NCBI GenBank assembly: GCA_003134375.1
Contig: PLAY01000020.1
Coordinates: forward strand, 1 to 56,316
Reading direction: 5' to 3'
Source of the DNA: Limisphaerales bacterium
Lineage (GTDB): Bacteria; Verrucomicrobiota; Verrucomicrobiia; Limisphaerales; UBA11358
DNA length: 56,316 nucleotides
The notes under the pieces: generated by a model
The model's database searches: none
What the model was told of the DNA's origin: nothing
The model's input: only the letters and a program-made list of their open reading frames with translations
Part shown: piece after piece, positions 21,047 to 28,769 of the stretch
Layout of the letters: each line of letters starts with the position of its first letter
Position numbering within the stretch: the stretch's first letter is position 1
Translations under genes and position numbers: made by a program

Positions 21047-21121
21047 ATGGGCTGGCTCAAACCCAAAACCGAACAGACTGGCGGCGTTGACGGCGGCGAG
21101 CGGCGCGAACAGAAATGCTGA
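21047..21121 (+). CDS. possible 24-aa upstream ORF overlapping the pilM start
   Basis: MGWLKPKTEQTGGVDGGERREQKC*; its TGA overlaps the PilM start in ATGCTGA. Confidence 0.3.
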   Translation: MGWLKPKTEQTGGVDGGERREQKC

Positions 21122-22932
21122 ACACAAAATCATTCCTGGCAGTGGATTTCGGGGCGGGCAGCCTCAAGGTGGCGGAGTTTGAAATCAACGAAGCCGGCGG
21201 TTTGCGTCTCAAGAGTTTTTCCATCAAGCCGCTTGGCCTCGAGGGCGCCCAGGAATCTTCCCGCGAAGCGACCGCGCTCAAGGCCTTGCGCGAGGTGCTG
21301 GCGGAAACCGGCACCAAGGCGCGGGACATCAACGTCTGCGCGCCGGGTTTTCAAGTATTTTCCAAATTCGTCAAGCTTCCGCCGGTGGACGCGGGCAAGG
21401 TGACGCAGATCATCCAATACGAAGCGCAACAGAACGTGCCGTTCCCGCTCGCGGAGGTGGTGTGGGATTATCAAATTTTGGGTTCCAGCACCGGTGGCGA
21501 ACTGGAAGTCCTGCTGGTGGCGATCAAATCCGAGGTGGTTGAAGGTCTGTTTCGCATGGCGGAGGAAGCGAAGCTGCGGTTGCAACTGTGCGACGTGTCA
21601 CCCGCGGCATTGTGCAACGCCTTTCGCTACAACTATGGCGATTTGCCGGATTGCACGATGCTCCTGGACATCGGCGCCAAGACGAGCAACCTGCTCTTCT
21701 TCGAGAATGGCAAGGTTTTCTCCCGCAGCATCAGTTTGGGCGCGAATTCCATCACGCAGGATTTTGCGCACGAGGCAAAATTAAAATTTGAAATCGCCGA
21801 ACAGAAGAAAGTTGCCGAAGGCTTCGTCAGCCTCGGCGGTGCTTACGAGGAGCCGGAAAGCGAGCACCAGGCGGCCATCGCCAAAATCGCGCGGCAGTTC
21901 ATGACCAAGCTGCACATCCAGGTCAACCAGACGAAGCAGTTTTATCGCGGGCAACAGGGCGGTTCGGAGCCGGTGCGTCTGTTTTTGTCCGGCGGCGCGT
22001 CCATCATGCCTTATACGGCGCAATTTTTCGCGGAAAAGTTGAATGTGCCGGTCGAATACTTCAATCCGTTCCGCAACGTGCAAATTGATCCGGCGGTGAA
22101 TCTGGAGGAACTGGCGCGCGTGGCACACTCGCTGGGCGAAGTGGTCGGCCTGGGATTGCGGAATCTGGCGAATTGTCCGGTGGAAATGAATTTGATGCCG
22201 AGCAGCACGTTGCGCTGGCGGACGTTCAATGAAAAGAAACCGTATTTCATCTTTACCCTGTTGAGCCTGGTGGCGGTGGCGGGCGCGGTTGGGTTCCTCT
22301 TTCAAAAACTGGCGGAATCGAAAGAAAATGAAATCAAGGATTTGGAGCCGCAGGTCCAAAAACTCAAAACCAAGGCTGACCAGTTTGATCGGACCTATAA
22401 AAAATTGCAGGCGACGCAGAAAGAAGCGGCTCAAATCACGAGTTGGATGGAGAAGCGATATTACTGGGGTGACGTGCTGACGGAATTGCGACGCGTGCTC
22501 ATTCGCTCCGAGGACGACATCAAGAAAAAATTGTCGGCGCAAAGAGCCGGGGTCGAAGCGGGCATCTGGATTGAACAGTTGACGATAGGCGCCGTGCAAA
22601 CTCCTGCCACCGGCCGTGGTGTCACTCCCGCGCCGGTTATGCCGGTTCCGAGTCCGGGTGACAGCGATGTCCCGGGGACCGAGGCCAATCCCGCTGCCAC
22701 GGCCAAACCCGCCGCCAGCACCATCACCCTGATCTGCCGCGCGGTGAATTTATCCAGTGTTGATTCTGCGGCGAACACCGATATTGCCTATGCGGTTCTC
22801 AAAGCGTTTCAGGAAGATCCGCTTTTTGATCCCAAAACGACGCAGCTCAGGGGAGATATCACCCCCGATGATGTTACCGGCACATTTACGTTTGGCATAA
22901 CCGTGGGGCTGCAAAATCCACTCAATTTGTAA
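21115..22932 (+). CDS. pilM: PilM-like pilus assembly ATPase-fold protein with PilN-like C-terminal region (Amuc_1101-like)
   Basis: MLNTKSFLAVDFGAGSLKVAEFE; QIIQYEAQQNVPFPLAEVVWDYQI; LDIGAKTSNLLFFENGKVFSRSISLGANSIT; TM and coiled coil at ~aa 380-440. Confidence 0.85.
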   Translation: MLNTKSFLAVDFGAGSLKVAEFEINEAGGLRLKSFSIKPLGLEGAQESSREATALKALREVLAETGTKARDINVCAPGFQVFSKFVKLPPVDAGKVTQIIQYEAQQNVPFPLAEVVWDYQILGSSTGGELEVLLVAIKSEVVEGLFRMAEEAKLRLQLCDVSPAALCNAFRYNYGDLPDCTMLLDIGAKTSNLLFFENGKVFSRSISLGANSITQDFAHEAKLKFEIAEQKKVAEGFVSLGGAYEEPESEHQAAIAKIARQFMTKLHIQVNQTKQFYRGQQGGSEPVRLFLSGGASIMPYTAQFFAEKLNVPVEYFNPFRNVQIDPAVNLEELARVAHSLGEVVGLGLRNLANCPVEMNLMPSSTLRWRTFNEKKPYFIFTLLSLVAVAGAVGFLFQKLAESKENEIKDLEPQVQKLKTKADQFDRTYKKLQATQKEAAQITSWMEKRYYWGDVLTELRRVLIRSEDDIKKKLSAQRAGVEAGIWIEQLTIGAVQTPATGRGVTPAPVMPVPSPGDSDVPGTEANPAATAKPAASTITLICRAVNLSSVDSAANTDIAYAVLKAFQEDPLFDPKTTQLRGDITPDDVTGTFTFGITVGLQNPLNL

Positions 22933-22933
22933 T

Positions 22934-23860
22934 ATGGCCTGGATCAAGCGAAACTTGTTTTTTGTGATTGGCGGCATACTGGCCCTGGGACTGCTGGGGG
23001 CGGCCGGGTTTTATAATTACAAAGGGTGGAGTCAAAACACGGCGGCGTTTGACAAGTTGACCGGGATTTACAACACGTTGCGGGATTTGACCGGCAAAAA
23101 ACCCTCGCCGGGCAACGACCGGGTGGACAACATCGCCGCCGCGCGCGAACAGGAACACCAGGTTCGAGACTGGATTCGACAGGCGGCGGATTATTTTCAA
23201 CCGATTGCACCGATTCCCAACACGGGGACCAATGCCGTTTCGAGTGAAGCGTTCGCCGCTGCGCTCCGCCGGACCATTGACCAACTGCAACATGAAGCCG
23301 AGGCCGCCAGTGTGACCCTGCCACCCAAGTATAACTTCTCCTTTGAAGCGCAACGCTCGCTGGTCAAATTTTCCGGCAATTTGGGAGCGCTGGCCGCGCA
23401 GTTTGGTGAAGTGAAAACCATTTCGGAAATTCTTTTTGCGGCGCGGGTCAATTCGCTGGACGGGATTCAGCGCGTCCGCGTTTCGGATGACGACGCAAAC
23501 GGCCCGCAGGCCGATTATTTCGACAATCATTCCGTGTCCAACAATCTGGCCGTTCTGACGCCCTACCAGGTTACGTTCCGTTCGTTCAGTCCGGAAATCG
23601 CCCAAGTGCTTGCCGGCTTTGCCTCGTCACCGCACGGATTCATCGTCAAGAGCATCAATGTTCAACTGACTGGCACCGCTGCGGCGATGTCGCCGGAGAC
23701 AGCGGGGCCGATGCCCTATCCGCCACCCTCGCTGGCAGCTCCGCCGGCAGCCTCGCCGCCGGGGACGCCGGGCAGGGGCGGATTGCAGACGGTGTTGAAC
23801 GAGCAACTGTTGCGCGTCACGCTGGTGGTCGAGGTTGTGAAATTGTTGCCGAAAAAGTAA
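22934..23860 (+). CDS. Amuc_1100-like pilus-system protein
   Basis: single N-terminal TM MAWIKRNLFFVIGGILALGLLGAAGFYNYKGW; position directly after pilM and before the Amuc_1099-like and secretin genes. Confidence 0.75.
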   Translation: MAWIKRNLFFVIGGILALGLLGAAGFYNYKGWSQNTAAFDKLTGIYNTLRDLTGKKPSPGNDRVDNIAAAREQEHQVRDWIRQAADYFQPIAPIPNTGTNAVSSEAFAAALRRTIDQLQHEAEAASVTLPPKYNFSFEAQRSLVKFSGNLGALAAQFGEVKTISEILFAARVNSLDGIQRVRVSDDDANGPQADYFDNHSVSNNLAVLTPYQVTFRSFSPEIAQVLAGFASSPHGFIVKSINVQLTGTAAAMSPETAGPMPYPPPSLAAPPAASPPGTPGRGGLQTVLNEQLLRVTLVVEVVKLLPKK

Positions 23861-23864
23861 GCTC

Positions 23865-24677
23865 ATGGATTTCGTCAAAAAACATTACGAGAAAATCCTG
23901 CTCAGCGTTGTGTTGCTGGGTTTGATGGGGGTGCTGGTGTTCATGCTGTACTTGATTCCCAGCGACCGGCAGAAGCTGGCCAACAACCGTCAGAGTATCA
24001 TCAGCCACGCGGTCAAACCTCTGGAACCGTTGGATTTGACGCGGGAAACAAATGTATCGGCACGGCTGCAATCGCCTTATAAGCTGGATTTTTCGACAAC
24101 GAACAAACTGTTCAATCCGGTTCAATGGCAAAAGAGAGTTGATGGAACTCTGGTGCCGGTCAAGCTCGGGCTCATTGGCCAGGACGCCGCGGTCGTTACC
24201 AAAATCACGCCGCTTTGTTTGATTCTCACGCTGGATTCGATAGAGACCAATGAATTTGGCACGCGCTATGTGATCAGCATGGAGCGCGAGGCGGCGGTTT
24301 TGCCTGCGCAGCGCGGCAAACGGCAGCATTATGCTTCGGTCGGGGAAAAGGTCGGGGAAAAGAATGAAGCCTTCGCCATTGTCGATGTGAGCGGTTCGCC
24401 GGGGAATCCGGCGCAATTGAAATTGATTTTGCAACTGACGGACACCGGCGAAAAGGTCACGCTGTCCAAAGACAAGCCCTTTCGCCGCACAGACAGTTAC
24501 TGTGCGGACTTGAAATATGATCCCGAAGGGAAAAAATGGCAGGGGCAGCGCGTCAACGCGGATTTAAGATTTGCCGGCGATGACAACATTATCGTTGCCA
24601 TCAACCAGGACTCGGTGATATTAAAGGCCAGATCAAACGATAAAAAAACGACATTGACATACAGCCCCAATCCTTGA
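23865..24677 (+). CDS. Amuc_1099-like pilus-system protein
   Basis: N-terminal TM MDFVKKHYEKILLSVVLLGLMGVLVFMLYLIP; locus position. Confidence 0.7.
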   Translation: MDFVKKHYEKILLSVVLLGLMGVLVFMLYLIPSDRQKLANNRQSIISHAVKPLEPLDLTRETNVSARLQSPYKLDFSTTNKLFNPVQWQKRVDGTLVPVKLGLIGQDAAVVTKITPLCLILTLDSIETNEFGTRYVISMEREAAVLPAQRGKRQHYASVGEKVGEKNEAFAIVDVSGSPGNPAQLKLILQLTDTGEKVTLSKDKPFRRTDSYCADLKYDPEGKKWQGQRVNADLRFAGDDNIIVAINQDSVILKARSNDKKTTLTYSPNP

Positions 24678-24766: not shown

Positions 24767-26941
24767 ATGACAAAAGCAGCACCTCTCTCACTCGGCTTTA
24801 TTTTGTTGCTGGCCGCCGCCGCAATGTTGCCGGCGCAAACCAGTCCCACGGACGCGGCGGTCAATGAAGCCGTGCTTCGTCAGGCCAATACCATCATCCT
24901 GCGCCAAAAACTTCTGGATGCCAAGAATACCGCCATGCGCGGAGATTTGACCGGGGCCGCCAAACTTTACGAAGATGCCAATACGCTGGTCGAGCAAATC
25001 GGTTCCGGCATCCCCGAAGAAAAGGCGCAAACCATTTCCGGCCTGGCTTCGACCCGGCTTACCCTCGCCCGTCAGGCACAAAGTAAAGGCGATTTGCACG
25101 AAGCCGCCACCCAGGTCAGCCGCGTGTTAAAAGTGGACCCACAAAATGCCGCCGCTCTTGCCTTCAAGAAGAACAACGACAGAGCGCTTGCTTCCATGAA
25201 CGGCAAAATGCCAGACGATGCGACCGTGCAACAAACCAAGTATATCGCCAATGACAAGACAGAAGCGGGCACATTGGTGCGGGACGGCAAATTACTTTAC
25301 GAAATGGGCAAGTTCGATGAGGCCGAAGTCAAATTAAAAGAGGCCGTCAAGCTCGATCCGGACAACGCGGGTGCCTTCTACTACATGAATTTGGTCAAGC
25401 AGGCCCGTTATGACCGTGAAGCGCGCACGCACACGATCGACACGCAAGAACGCATGGTGCAGGTGGAAAAAGCCTACCAGAATCCGGTAAACCGCGGGTT
25501 GCTGCCCATGTCCAATCCGTATGCCTTGACCAATATCGTCCACACCGGTGCCGGTCGCGAGGTCATTTACAGCAAGCTTGACCACATCCGGCTTGATTCG
25601 GTTCCCTGGCCCGAAGGACTGCCGTTGGTCGAAGTGCTTCGCAATCTGAGCGAACAAACCAAGCTGCGCGACCCGGACAAAAAGGGAATTAACTTTCTTT
25701 TTAATCCAAACGCACCGGCAGCCGCCGGGGCCATCACGCCCGCCGGCGGCGCAACGACCATTGACCCGGCCACGGGATTGCCCGTGGCGGCTCCGGCCGG
25801 CGGTGGTGAAGCCGTGGATGCCAGTTCCATCAATGTCAAGTTGACATTAAGCGATGTGCGGTTGGCGGATGTGCTGGATGCCATTGTGTTGGTGGCTGAT
25901 CATCCCATCAAATATTCCGTTGAGGATTACGCCATCGTTTTCTCAACCAGGGGGCCGGACACGATGCAATTGGAAACGCGCACATTTAAAGTGGATCCCA
26001 ACACCTTCCAGCAAGGCTTGGAAAGCGTGAGTGCGCAAAGTTTTGGTTCGTCCTCCTCTAGTGGCGGTAGCGGTGGCAGCGGCGGCGGCGGTGGTGGCGG
26101 CGGTCAGAATGGACAGAACACCGGCGCGGTTGTGCCGGTGATTAACGCAGCTCCCGGAAGCAGCGGCATGCGTCAAACAAGCAGTGGCGGCGGCGGTGGC
26201 GGTGGCGGCGGTGGTGGTGGCGCCGGTAACGGCGGGTTGTCTTATGTGACAACAACTAATCTAACAGCGAACATCAGTCTTTTAGCCAAAAGTTTCTTCA
26301 CGACGCTGGGTGTGAATTTGGACCCGCCGAAGAGCGTTTTCTTTAACGACCGGTTGGGTGTGTTGTTCGTCCGCGCGACCGCGCAGGATTTGGACATCAT
26401 CGAGAAAGCGATTCAGGTGTTGAACATGACGCCGCCGCAGTTGCACATCAAGGCCCGATTCATTGAAGTGGAGCAGGATGACAATGCGGCGCTGGGCTTT
26501 GACTGGTATTTGGGGAATGTCAATATGGGCAATGGAGTGGTAGGGACCGGCGGCAACGCCGGATCGGTCGGTGTGCCGACTTCGCAAATGACTGGTCCCG
26601 GGAGTGTTTATTCATCGGGTATTTTTCCTGGGTACCAAAATGGTGGCACCCTGGTTAATACCATTAACCCCACGGTTCAAAGTCTAACGAGCGGTCTTAA
26701 TAACACCGCTCCGGCCATTGCCTCGATAACCGGAATTCTGACCGATCCCAATTTTCAAGTAGTTATTCATGCCTTGGAACAGCGCACCGGCACCGAAACG
26801 CTGGCGGAACCTGAAGTGACCACCATCAGCGGTCGCCAAACCGAGATGCGCGCGACCCAAATTCTGACCATCATCACGAGCTTTACCTTCCAGCAAGGTA
26901 CAACCAGTGGAACGACCACGGGTACGACAACCACCCCATAA
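24767..26941 (+). CDS. type IV pilus secretin, N-terminal part (Amuc_1098-like): TPR, N-domains and first part of the secretin domain
   Basis: signal peptide; TPR region; VKLTLSDVRLADVLDAIVLVADHPIKYSVEDYAIVFSTR; ALEQRTGTETLAEPEVTTISGRQTEMRATQILTIIT, then a T-rich tail and stop. Confidence 0.85.
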   Translation: MTKAAPLSLGFILLLAAAAMLPAQTSPTDAAVNEAVLRQANTIILRQKLLDAKNTAMRGDLTGAAKLYEDANTLVEQIGSGIPEEKAQTISGLASTRLTLARQAQSKGDLHEAATQVSRVLKVDPQNAAALAFKKNNDRALASMNGKMPDDATVQQTKYIANDKTEAGTLVRDGKLLYEMGKFDEAEVKLKEAVKLDPDNAGAFYYMNLVKQARYDREARTHTIDTQERMVQVEKAYQNPVNRGLLPMSNPYALTNIVHTGAGREVIYSKLDHIRLDSVPWPEGLPLVEVLRNLSEQTKLRDPDKKGINFLFNPNAPAAAGAITPAGGATTIDPATGLPVAAPAGGGEAVDASSINVKLTLSDVRLADVLDAIVLVADHPIKYSVEDYAIVFSTRGPDTMQLETRTFKVDPNTFQQGLESVSAQSFGSSSSSGGSGGSGGGGGGGGQNGQNTGAVVPVINAAPGSSGMRQTSSGGGGGGGGGGGGAGNGGLSYVTTTNLTANISLLAKSFFTTLGVNLDPPKSVFFNDRLGVLFVRATAQDLDIIEKAIQVLNMTPPQLHIKARFIEVEQDDNAALGFDWYLGNVNMGNGVVGTGGNAGSVGVPTSQMTGPGSVYSSGIFPGYQNGGTLVNTINPTVQSLTSGLNNTAPAIASITGILTDPNFQVVIHALEQRTGTETLAEPEVTTISGRQTEMRATQILTIITSFTFQQGTTSGTTTGTTTTP
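26060..26104. repeat. GGC/GGT glycine-codon tract in the secretin gene
   Basis: encodes SGGSGGSGGGGGGGG. Confidence 0.8.
26184..26233. repeat. second GGC/GGT glycine-codon tract in the secretin gene
   Basis: encodes SGGGGGGGGGGGGAGNGG. Confidence 0.8.
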
Positions 26942-26973
26942 CAACTTTATAACTTTAGATACCAACCAGCACC

Positions 26974-27630
26974 ATGAAGACCAGTCGAAAATCAAAAATA
27001 GTTGTAAAAGGTTTTGTTTTGTGCGTGGCCATTGCGCTGTTGGGCGTTATCCCTTCAGGACAGGCCCAAGTGGTTAACCAAGCCGTGCAAACCTCCGCCA
27101 TCACGCCCAGCGAGCAACAGATGGAAGTCGGCCCCGTGCTGGACGTGATCCCTTATGTTTTGTCCGACGGCTACACGGTCAACCTCACATTGATCCCGTC
27201 GCTGACCGAGTTCAGCGGCTACGCCACGCCGCCGTCAATTCCCGGGATCAGCAGTGGTCTCAACGTCGTGATGATTCCCACCATTCTGCCGGACTTTACC
27301 GTGCGCCAGGTCATCACCACCGTCAACATCTGGGATAACCAGACCGTGGTCCTCGGTGGATTGATTTCTTCGTCAGTCCAGGAAGAGAAGGACAAGGTGC
27401 CGGTGCTCGGCGACCTGCCGCTGGTGGGGCGGCTCTTTCAAAGCCAGTCAAAAACTTCCGTGAAAAAAAACCTGATGATTTTTGTGACCGCCACCATTGT
27501 TGATCCGGCTGGCAACCGGGTGCATTCGGACGATGAACTGCCGTTTTTACAAAGCACCATTCCACCGCAACAACCGGGAGTGGAAGTGCGGCCGGGAAAC
27601 GCCGAAACGGCGCCCGTGCCGGTGCGGTGA
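26974..27630 (+). CDS. secretin C-terminal half as a separate ORF with its own signal peptide
   Basis: MKTSRKSKIVVKGFVLCVAIALLGVIPSGQAQ signal; then QMEVGPVLDVIPYVLSDGYTVNLTLIPSLTEF..QVITTVNIWDNQTVVLGGLISSSVQEEKDKVPVLGDLPLVGRLFQSQSKTSVKKNLMIFVTATIVDPAG. Confidence 0.9.
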   Translation: MKTSRKSKIVVKGFVLCVAIALLGVIPSGQAQVVNQAVQTSAITPSEQQMEVGPVLDVIPYVLSDGYTVNLTLIPSLTEFSGYATPPSIPGISSGLNVVMIPTILPDFTVRQVITTVNIWDNQTVVLGGLISSSVQEEKDKVPVLGDLPLVGRLFQSQSKTSVKKNLMIFVTATIVDPAGNRVHSDDELPFLQSTIPPQQPGVEVRPGNAETAPVPVR

Positions 27631-27746: not shown

Positions 27747-28631
27747 GTGGATCGGTTGCTGATTATTGATGGACACGCTTACGCTTATCGCGCGTTTCAC
27801 GCGATTCGCGATTTGCGTTCGCCGGGTGGCCAGCCGACGAATGCCATTTATGGCTTCGTCAAAATGCTGGCAAAAATGCGGGCGGCCATCGGGCCGTCGC
27901 ATTTGATTGTGGTGTGGGACGGCGGTCTGAGCGCCGAACGCACTGCCCTGTTGCCGGAATACAAGGCGCAGCGTCCGGGAATGCCGGACGATTTGAAGCC
28001 GCAGCTTGACGGGATCGTCAGTCATCTGCAAGCGGCGGGGGTAGCCTCGTTTTGCCGCGAGGGCGTGGAAGCGGACGATTACATCGCGTGCCTGGCGCGG
28101 CGCGCGTCGGAGGCGGGCATGGCCGTGGTCATTGCCAGTTCCGACAAAGATTTTATGCAGTTGGTGTCGGCGCGGGTCGGATTGTTGAACCCGAACGACA
28201 AGAGCGGGACGGTTTGGACGGATGGGCAGGTGCGCGCCAAAACCGGCGTGGCACCGTCGCAAATTGTGGATTGGTTGAGTTTGATGGGCGACACCGTGGA
28301 CAATATTCCGGGTGTGGCCGGCGTCGGGCCGAAAACCGCCGCTGAATTGCTGAAACAATTCGGCTCGGTCACCGCGCTGTATGAGCGGCTGGGTGAAGTG
28401 AAATCGGAAAAGTTGCGCGCGGCGGTGCGCGGTGCGGCGGATGTGGTGCGGCGCAATGGCGAATTGGTGCGGTTGCATGACGATTTGCCGTGTGAATTCT
28501 CGCCGGGCGCGCTGGTGGAGAAACCGGCGGATGCCGGCCGGTTGCGCGAGTTGTATCAGCGCTGGGGTTTCAAGGGCATGCTCGCGGCGCTGGAGGAATC
28601 GGTGCGCGAACGGCAGGCGGTTTTGATTTAG
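27747..28631 (+). CDS. 5'-3' exonuclease (DNA polymerase I N-terminal exonuclease-like)
   Basis: GTG start; DRLLIIDGHAYAYRAFHAI, EGVEADDYIACLA, SSDKDFMQLV, GDTVDNIPGVAGVGPKTAAELL. Confidence 0.9.
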   Translation: MDRLLIIDGHAYAYRAFHAIRDLRSPGGQPTNAIYGFVKMLAKMRAAIGPSHLIVVWDGGLSAERTALLPEYKAQRPGMPDDLKPQLDGIVSHLQAAGVASFCREGVEADDYIACLARRASEAGMAVVIASSDKDFMQLVSARVGLLNPNDKSGTVWTDGQVRAKTGVAPSQIVDWLSLMGDTVDNIPGVAGVGPKTAAELLKQFGSVTALYERLGEVKSEKLRAAVRGAADVVRRNGELVRLHDDLPCEFSPGALVEKPADAGRLRELYQRWGFKGMLAALEESVRERQAVLI

Positions 28632-28769
28632 AAAATGAATTTGGAACACAAAAGTTTGTTGGCGGTCAAACACGGAGCGCGGCTGTTTTTTCAGCGGCGG
28701 TGCGCGTGTTTGGGCGAAAGTATTCTTGGACAAAACGCCCGGCTGCGTCTAAAGTCTATTGACCCTTTT

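Follow-up and report, generated by a model that had tools for sequence, protein, structure and literature searches.

The window analysed here is a 56,316-nucleotide stretch of DNA from a Limisphaerales bacterium, whose genome is a draft of 201 contigs (92.8 % complete). It contains two adjacent ORFs, A (24767-26941) and B (26974-27630), which lie 32 nt apart in different reading frames and close an operon with the gene order PilM/Amuc_1101, Amuc_1100, orf270, A, B. Half A comprises a signal peptide, a TPR region, N-domains and the first half of a secretin domain through the rising GATE1 strand, while half B comprises a signal peptide, the falling GATE1 strand and the remaining secretin core. 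The features of the locus are as follows.

21115-22932, forward strand: PilM-like protein of the Amuc_1101 family, 605 aa, first gene of the operon (NF045709, E 7e-145; TIGR01175 pilM above cut-off).
22934-23860, forward strand: Amuc_1100-family pilus-like protein, 308 aa (NF038287, E 8e-18, below cut-off; syntenic in relatives).
23865-24677, forward strand: conserved 270-aa protein (orf270) with one N-terminal hydrophobic segment; a syntenic orthologue is present in relatives given enough contig.
24767-26941, forward strand: secretin half A, 724 aa (N-terminal part of NF042912, TPR matches).
24767-24835, forward strand: signal peptide of A, MTKAAPLSLGFILLLAAAAMLPA, followed by Q after the putative cleavage site (read from sequence).
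26858-26893, forward strand: rising GATE1 strand QILTIITSFTFQ, close to the end of A (alignment to intact relatives and GspD; strand 743-754 of the intact-orthologue model).
26900-26938, forward strand: low-complexity Thr/Gly tail of A, the equivalent of the disordered hairpin tip of intact relatives.
26942-26973, forward strand: intergenic spacer of 32 nt from the A stop to the B start (the two nearest species have 24 nt).
26974-27630, forward strand: secretin half B, 218 aa (PF00263 positions 29-169, E 1e-27; NF042912 positions 640-804).
26974-27066, forward strand: predicted signal peptide of B, MKTSRKSKIVVKGFVLCVAIALLGVIPSGQA, followed by Q after the putative cleavage site (unchanged in G001 and with one change in G005; all 54 split species have an equivalent hydrophobic N-terminus).
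27094-27165, forward strand: falling GATE1 strand SAITPSEQQMEVGPVLDVIPYVLS, within mature B (strand 782-802 of the intact model; alignment to GspD).
27747-28631, forward strand: 5'-3' exonuclease-like gene directly downstream of B (by sequence resemblance; outside the system).

An exonuclease-like gene similar to the one downstream of B also follows the intact secretin gene of a relative (L107) and thus marks the same locus. No family match was found for orf270, which is inferred to occupy the position of a PilO/PilP-type component. Further downstream, between positions 28635 and 36735, the window encodes three large exported-looking Asn/Thr-rich proteins (ORFs starting at 28635, 30920 and 33307), two of which have a near-identical NRIHGRITGYITNTT stretch in common.

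A and B are the two halves of one secretin of the Amuc_1098 family. On the family model NF042912, half A falls on the N-terminal part (E 4e-68) and half B on the C-terminal end (positions 640-804, E 4e-39). B also matches the Pfam Secretin profile (PF00263) from position 29 through its end, and the missing start of the profile aligns to the end of A in the alignment with intact relatives, so that a complete PF00263 domain is met by the pair and by neither chain singly. The curated single-protein cut-off of NF042912 (750 bits) is not reached by A (230 bits) or B (134 bits); however, it was reached by none of the 312 genomes of the order, intact genes included, and is therefore non-discriminating here. 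The operon criterion of the family, the presence of Amuc_1100- and Amuc_1101-family genes, is met, although the Amuc_1100 match in the window lies below its family cut-off. Annotation may overlook such secretins, because each half matches the family model only in part.

The split is not confined to this genome. When B was used as a query over 49 genomes of the same genus (a family-level genome search gave the identical 49), most of the best matches were short frames of 215-307 codons and the rest were long, mostly 900-1030 codons. Across the order, the gene is split in 54 of the 85 species in which its state could be read and continuous in the other 31, with one further species unclear owing to a contig end. 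The split species span eight family-level groups, namely the window's own (f1) and f11, f14, f19, f34, f35, f37 and f51, and among the loci fetched the same operon was found wherever the contig was long enough. Outside the window's own genus, the sample of 85 was enriched for species with short frames; this proportion is therefore not a frequency for the order, and a separate profile search of the order returned long frames in most other families. Nearly all of the genomes are metagenome-assembled, and the near relatives with named records are MAGs of Verrucomicrobia subdivision 3/Limisphaerales. The split species come from many separate projects, and some of the split loci lie on contigs of 0.5-1 Mb. 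On one 1-Mb contig (G096:C1, locus L151), the A gene is broken into several frames and B is whole, which probably reflects long-read indel errors.

Half B is predicted, from hydropathy and motif and without protein-level evidence, to carry its own Sec-type signal peptide. A signal-peptide-like start was observed in 54 of 54 B proteins, with an AxA|Q-type site in 53 and a net positive start in 53. The window and its nearest relative have the same B signal peptide. Hydropathy over 10 residues of the B N-terminus was at least 1.91 (median 2.59) in the 54 split species, whereas the corresponding region of the 31 intact proteins, mostly a Gly/Asn/Thr-rich linker, reached a maximum of 1.70 (median 0.92). 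No trained predictor was used in this assessment.

Nearly all of the pairs compared, which exclude those with saturated dS, show purifying selection on A as well as on B. In the other split clades, dN/dS for the core of A and of B ranges from 0.00 to 0.17. In the closest clade, which includes the window, the core values are 0.32-0.37, similar to that of PilM there. The sole high value, 0.82 for B between the window and G001, was obtained at a dS of just 0.036.

These observations bear on the possibility that the split is peculiar to a single genome, as an error of sequencing or assembly or as a recent frameshift pseudogene. The fragmented state of the 201-contig draft could be taken to favour such an explanation, but 54 species, sequenced in many independent projects, share the split, and in each of them B opens with a signal peptide. 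Both halves, moreover, are under purifying selection. An error or a recent pseudogene is thereby all but excluded, and the recurrence of the same cut in separate branches indicates that the split is a real evolved arrangement. An earlier note on this locus, made from sequence alone, had claimed a secretin gene split inside its secretin domain, with a credible Sec signal on the second ORF. Both claims held: the ORFs lie exactly where it had placed them, and the hydrophobic core and cleavage motif recur in the split species. The note had named one continuous ORF in related genomes as a refutation; such relatives exist (31 species), alongside 54 of 85 with the same split.

A second alternative is that programmed frameshifting or stop readthrough joins the two ORFs into one long protein, at least sometimes. 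In its favour, the genes are adjacent, with a median spacing of 24 nt between the A stop and the B ATG, and a secretin domain requires both halves. The spacing, however, ranges from -4 to 208 nt and is spread over all three remainders (22, 14 and 17 cases for 0, 1 and 2), so that the reading frame is not fixed, which argues against such a mechanism. Moreover, the fused product would have a signal peptide within the gate, and the window junction contains no homopolymer run of six or more bases. Programmed frameshifting was rejected on the free relative frame, the variable spacing and the absence of a homopolymer at the window junction, and this explanation as a whole is considered very unlikely. 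Two separately translated halves remain the preferred reading.

In secretins, the pore is closed by the GATE1 beta-hairpin, which kinks at a hinge corresponding to G453 of GspD, G458 of PulD and N386 of InvG, as well as at a second conserved glycine (PMC6155069; PMC7545093). The hinge G453 of Vibrio cholerae GspD was located by profile alignment to the wild type and the G453A mutant, and this residue and the hairpin that follows it correspond in the alignment to the C-terminal residues of A and the N-terminal residues of mature B. In the split protein, the GATE1 stretch extends from MRATQILTIITSFTFQQG, at the C-terminal end of A, to TSAITPSEQQMEVGPVLDV, where mature B starts. For the intact L107 orthologue, an AlphaFold2 model of moderate quality (mean pLDDT 65, pTM 0.39) contains the two strands at residues 743-754 and 782-802, joined by a linker partly below pLDDT 50, and matches the GspD, PilQ and InvG secretins in Foldseek. 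A model of B alone was of low confidence (mean pLDDT 42) and uninformative. By alignment, the tail of A reaches approximately residue 769 of the linker (L107 numbering) and mature B begins at approximately residue 773, from which it is inferred that little but the covalent link is missing. Mature B also retains a VVNQA-like motif, which intact relatives have just before the falling strand. Alignment, together with a model of moderate confidence, places the break at the tip of GATE1, with A providing the rising and mature B the falling strand. The loop between conserved blocks to which the earlier note had assigned the break is thereby refined to the tip of this hairpin, inside the secretin domain.

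In three loci (L147 in G138, L148 in G137 and L150 in G103), A ends in a Peptidase_S74 (chaperone of endosialidase) domain followed by a coiled-coil-like tail. The domain is joined exactly at the gate-hairpin break, and the loci belong to two family-level groups.

The distribution of the two states is not explained by a single event. The tree of the three upstream genes, which is independent of the secretin, requires 14 changes between split and intact states, 10 of them forced by well-supported branches, and the secretin tree requires 11, nine of them forced. The grouping of all split genes in one clade was rejected on both trees (p-AU 5e-59 and 4e-5). The intact state is probably ancestral, since the outgroup relatives with complete genes (Verrucomicrobiales and Opitutae) have intact, continuous genes. 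A two-rate model that includes re-fusion outperforms a model without it (2 delta lnL 15.2 and 20.1), and on average approximately 8 splits and 8-15 fusions were mapped, although these values depend on quick trees. The two trees disagree as to whether the intact members of the window's own genus form one clade: the tree of the upstream genes rejects this (p-AU 3e-91), the secretin tree does not (p-AU 0.285), and the number of re-fusions there is therefore uncertain. In pairs of sister species such as G032/G040 and G004/G042, one member has the fused and the other the split form, which suggests that the two forms are near-equivalent in function. Given at least nine state changes and the rejection of a single split clade, it is concluded that the gene was split repeatedly at one point; re-fusion is also probable, although its count is unsettled.

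The favoured interpretation, which appears very likely, is that A and B are exported by the Sec pathway and together form a single secretin whose gate hairpin is made of two chains. In this model, a PilM-linked type IV pilus-like machine would have an Amuc_1098-type secretin made from two adjacent genes. Each half would be exported by its own Sec-type signal peptide and trimmed, and the halves would then join in the periplasm or at the outer membrane. A would contribute the TPR region, the domains that build the ring and the initial strands of the secretin domain, and B the remaining barrel and C-terminal core; pairing at the GATE1 strands and over the remainder of the barrel would generate one subunit. 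One ring would contain twice as many chains as usual, and the gate fingers would each terminate in two free ends, the C-terminus of A and the N-terminus of B. As the missing bond sits in the flexible tip, the GATE1 strands may still be able to pair from two chains, and the variable, low-complexity nature of this loop may explain why the break is tolerated and has been gained and lost in evolution. The two conserved ORFs, the predicted export of both, the location and recurrence of the break and the selection on both halves are demonstrated, whereas co-assembly, gate behaviour and pilus function are inferred, in the absence of binding, expression or protein-level data.

The genome of the window (G000) also encodes pilus-type ATPases as well as PilC-type proteins, and genes for the two are clustered on contig C199. 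Three more secretin genes lie on contigs C18, C92 and C180, the latter two of which also carry GspE-type ATPase genes, and several T2SS/T4P-like systems therefore seem to coexist. A fourth (L055, on C192) belongs, with L053, L086, L091 and L094, to a group of paralogues from this genome and relatives that are single polypeptides of approximately 900-1250 aa, with a BlaR1-type M56 metallopeptidase membrane domain first and the secretin domain last; this fusion of a sensor-type protease to an outer-membrane secretin is topologically puzzling.

The presence of these four other secretins, two of them with GspE-type ATPase genes on the same contigs, could support the alternative that A and B no longer form a pore jointly, another secretin serving the outer membrane and A and B having separate or regulatory roles. 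However, A and B sit in the PilM operon at the position of the secretin of intact relatives, jointly retain the entire secretin sequence and differ in state between the sister species named above, as functional equivalence predicts. This alternative is thus unlikely, and joint assembly of A and B remains preferred. A complete secretin elsewhere in the genome, combined with a second ORF that is not exported, had been named beforehand as a possible refutation; complete paralogues are present, but the nearest (C192) is the M56-peptidase fusion and does not duplicate this gene. The claim of a two-polypeptide secretin from separately exported halves is supported in that the split, the two ORFs and the signal peptide of B are conserved in 54 species of eight family-level groups and dN/dS is low in nearly all pairs, although physical co-assembly is still inferred. 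Beyond that claim, the split was found to have been gained, and probably also lost, several times, and to lie at the gate hairpin tip.

A bolder reading, which can only be offered as a possibility, is that the cut is itself functional, with free-ended two-chain gate fingers allowing gating, assembly or the A:B ratio to be regulated in a manner unlike that of a one-chain secretin. It is likewise conceivable that the lineages of G103, G137 and G138 built on the cut and attached a Peptidase_S74 chaperone domain at the gate tip, on the newly created end of A.

The system resembles the Amuc_1098 family of Akkermansia and other Verrucomicrobiota (NF042912) in its operon partners, Amuc_1100 and Amuc_1101/PilM, and in its TPR, N- and secretin domains, with homology spanning both halves. 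It differs from the Amuc_1098 proteins of its Verrucomicrobiales and Opitutae relatives, which are one polypeptide, in having two polypeptides and two signal peptides. The secretin fold and gate hairpins are also common to the solved structures of GspD, PilQ and InvG (by alignment and Foldseek), but these have one chain per subunit and a closed GATE1 turn. Split secretins as such are known from the type III secretion systems of rhizobia (RhcC1/RhcC2) and Pseudomonas syringae (PMC3574062, PMC3973906), and A/B resembles RhcC1/RhcC2 and the HrcIIC1/HrcIIC2 pair of the P. syringae T3SS-2 in that an N-terminal and a C-terminal gene serve one secretin function. In rhizobia, the entire secretin domain is contained in RhcC2, which arose from a Tad secretin through partial gene replacement, and all that RhcC1 represents is a remnant of the N-terminal part (PMC3459982, PMC4500985). 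The rhizobial-type criterion, a break before an entire secretin domain with a Tad-derived C-terminal part, does not apply to A/B, in which, unlike in RhcC1/RhcC2, the secretin domain is itself interrupted, at a gate hairpin. A and B match the same Amuc_1098 family and align to the same intact orthologues, and the two halves derive from one gene. The literature searched yielded no split secretins other than the type III ones of rhizobia and P. syringae, and no report of a secretin-domain cut in the gate hairpin recurring within a bacterial order; within those limits, such a recurrent split is likely to be new.

If A and B do co-assemble, the hairpin that closes the pore need not be a single chain, and the mechanics of the gate could be tested in a natural two-piece system. 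A giant outer-membrane barrel would then be buildable from twice as many separately exported pieces, and these secretins would represent a rare case of a membrane-pore gene that has been repeatedly split, and probably re-fused, at one point.
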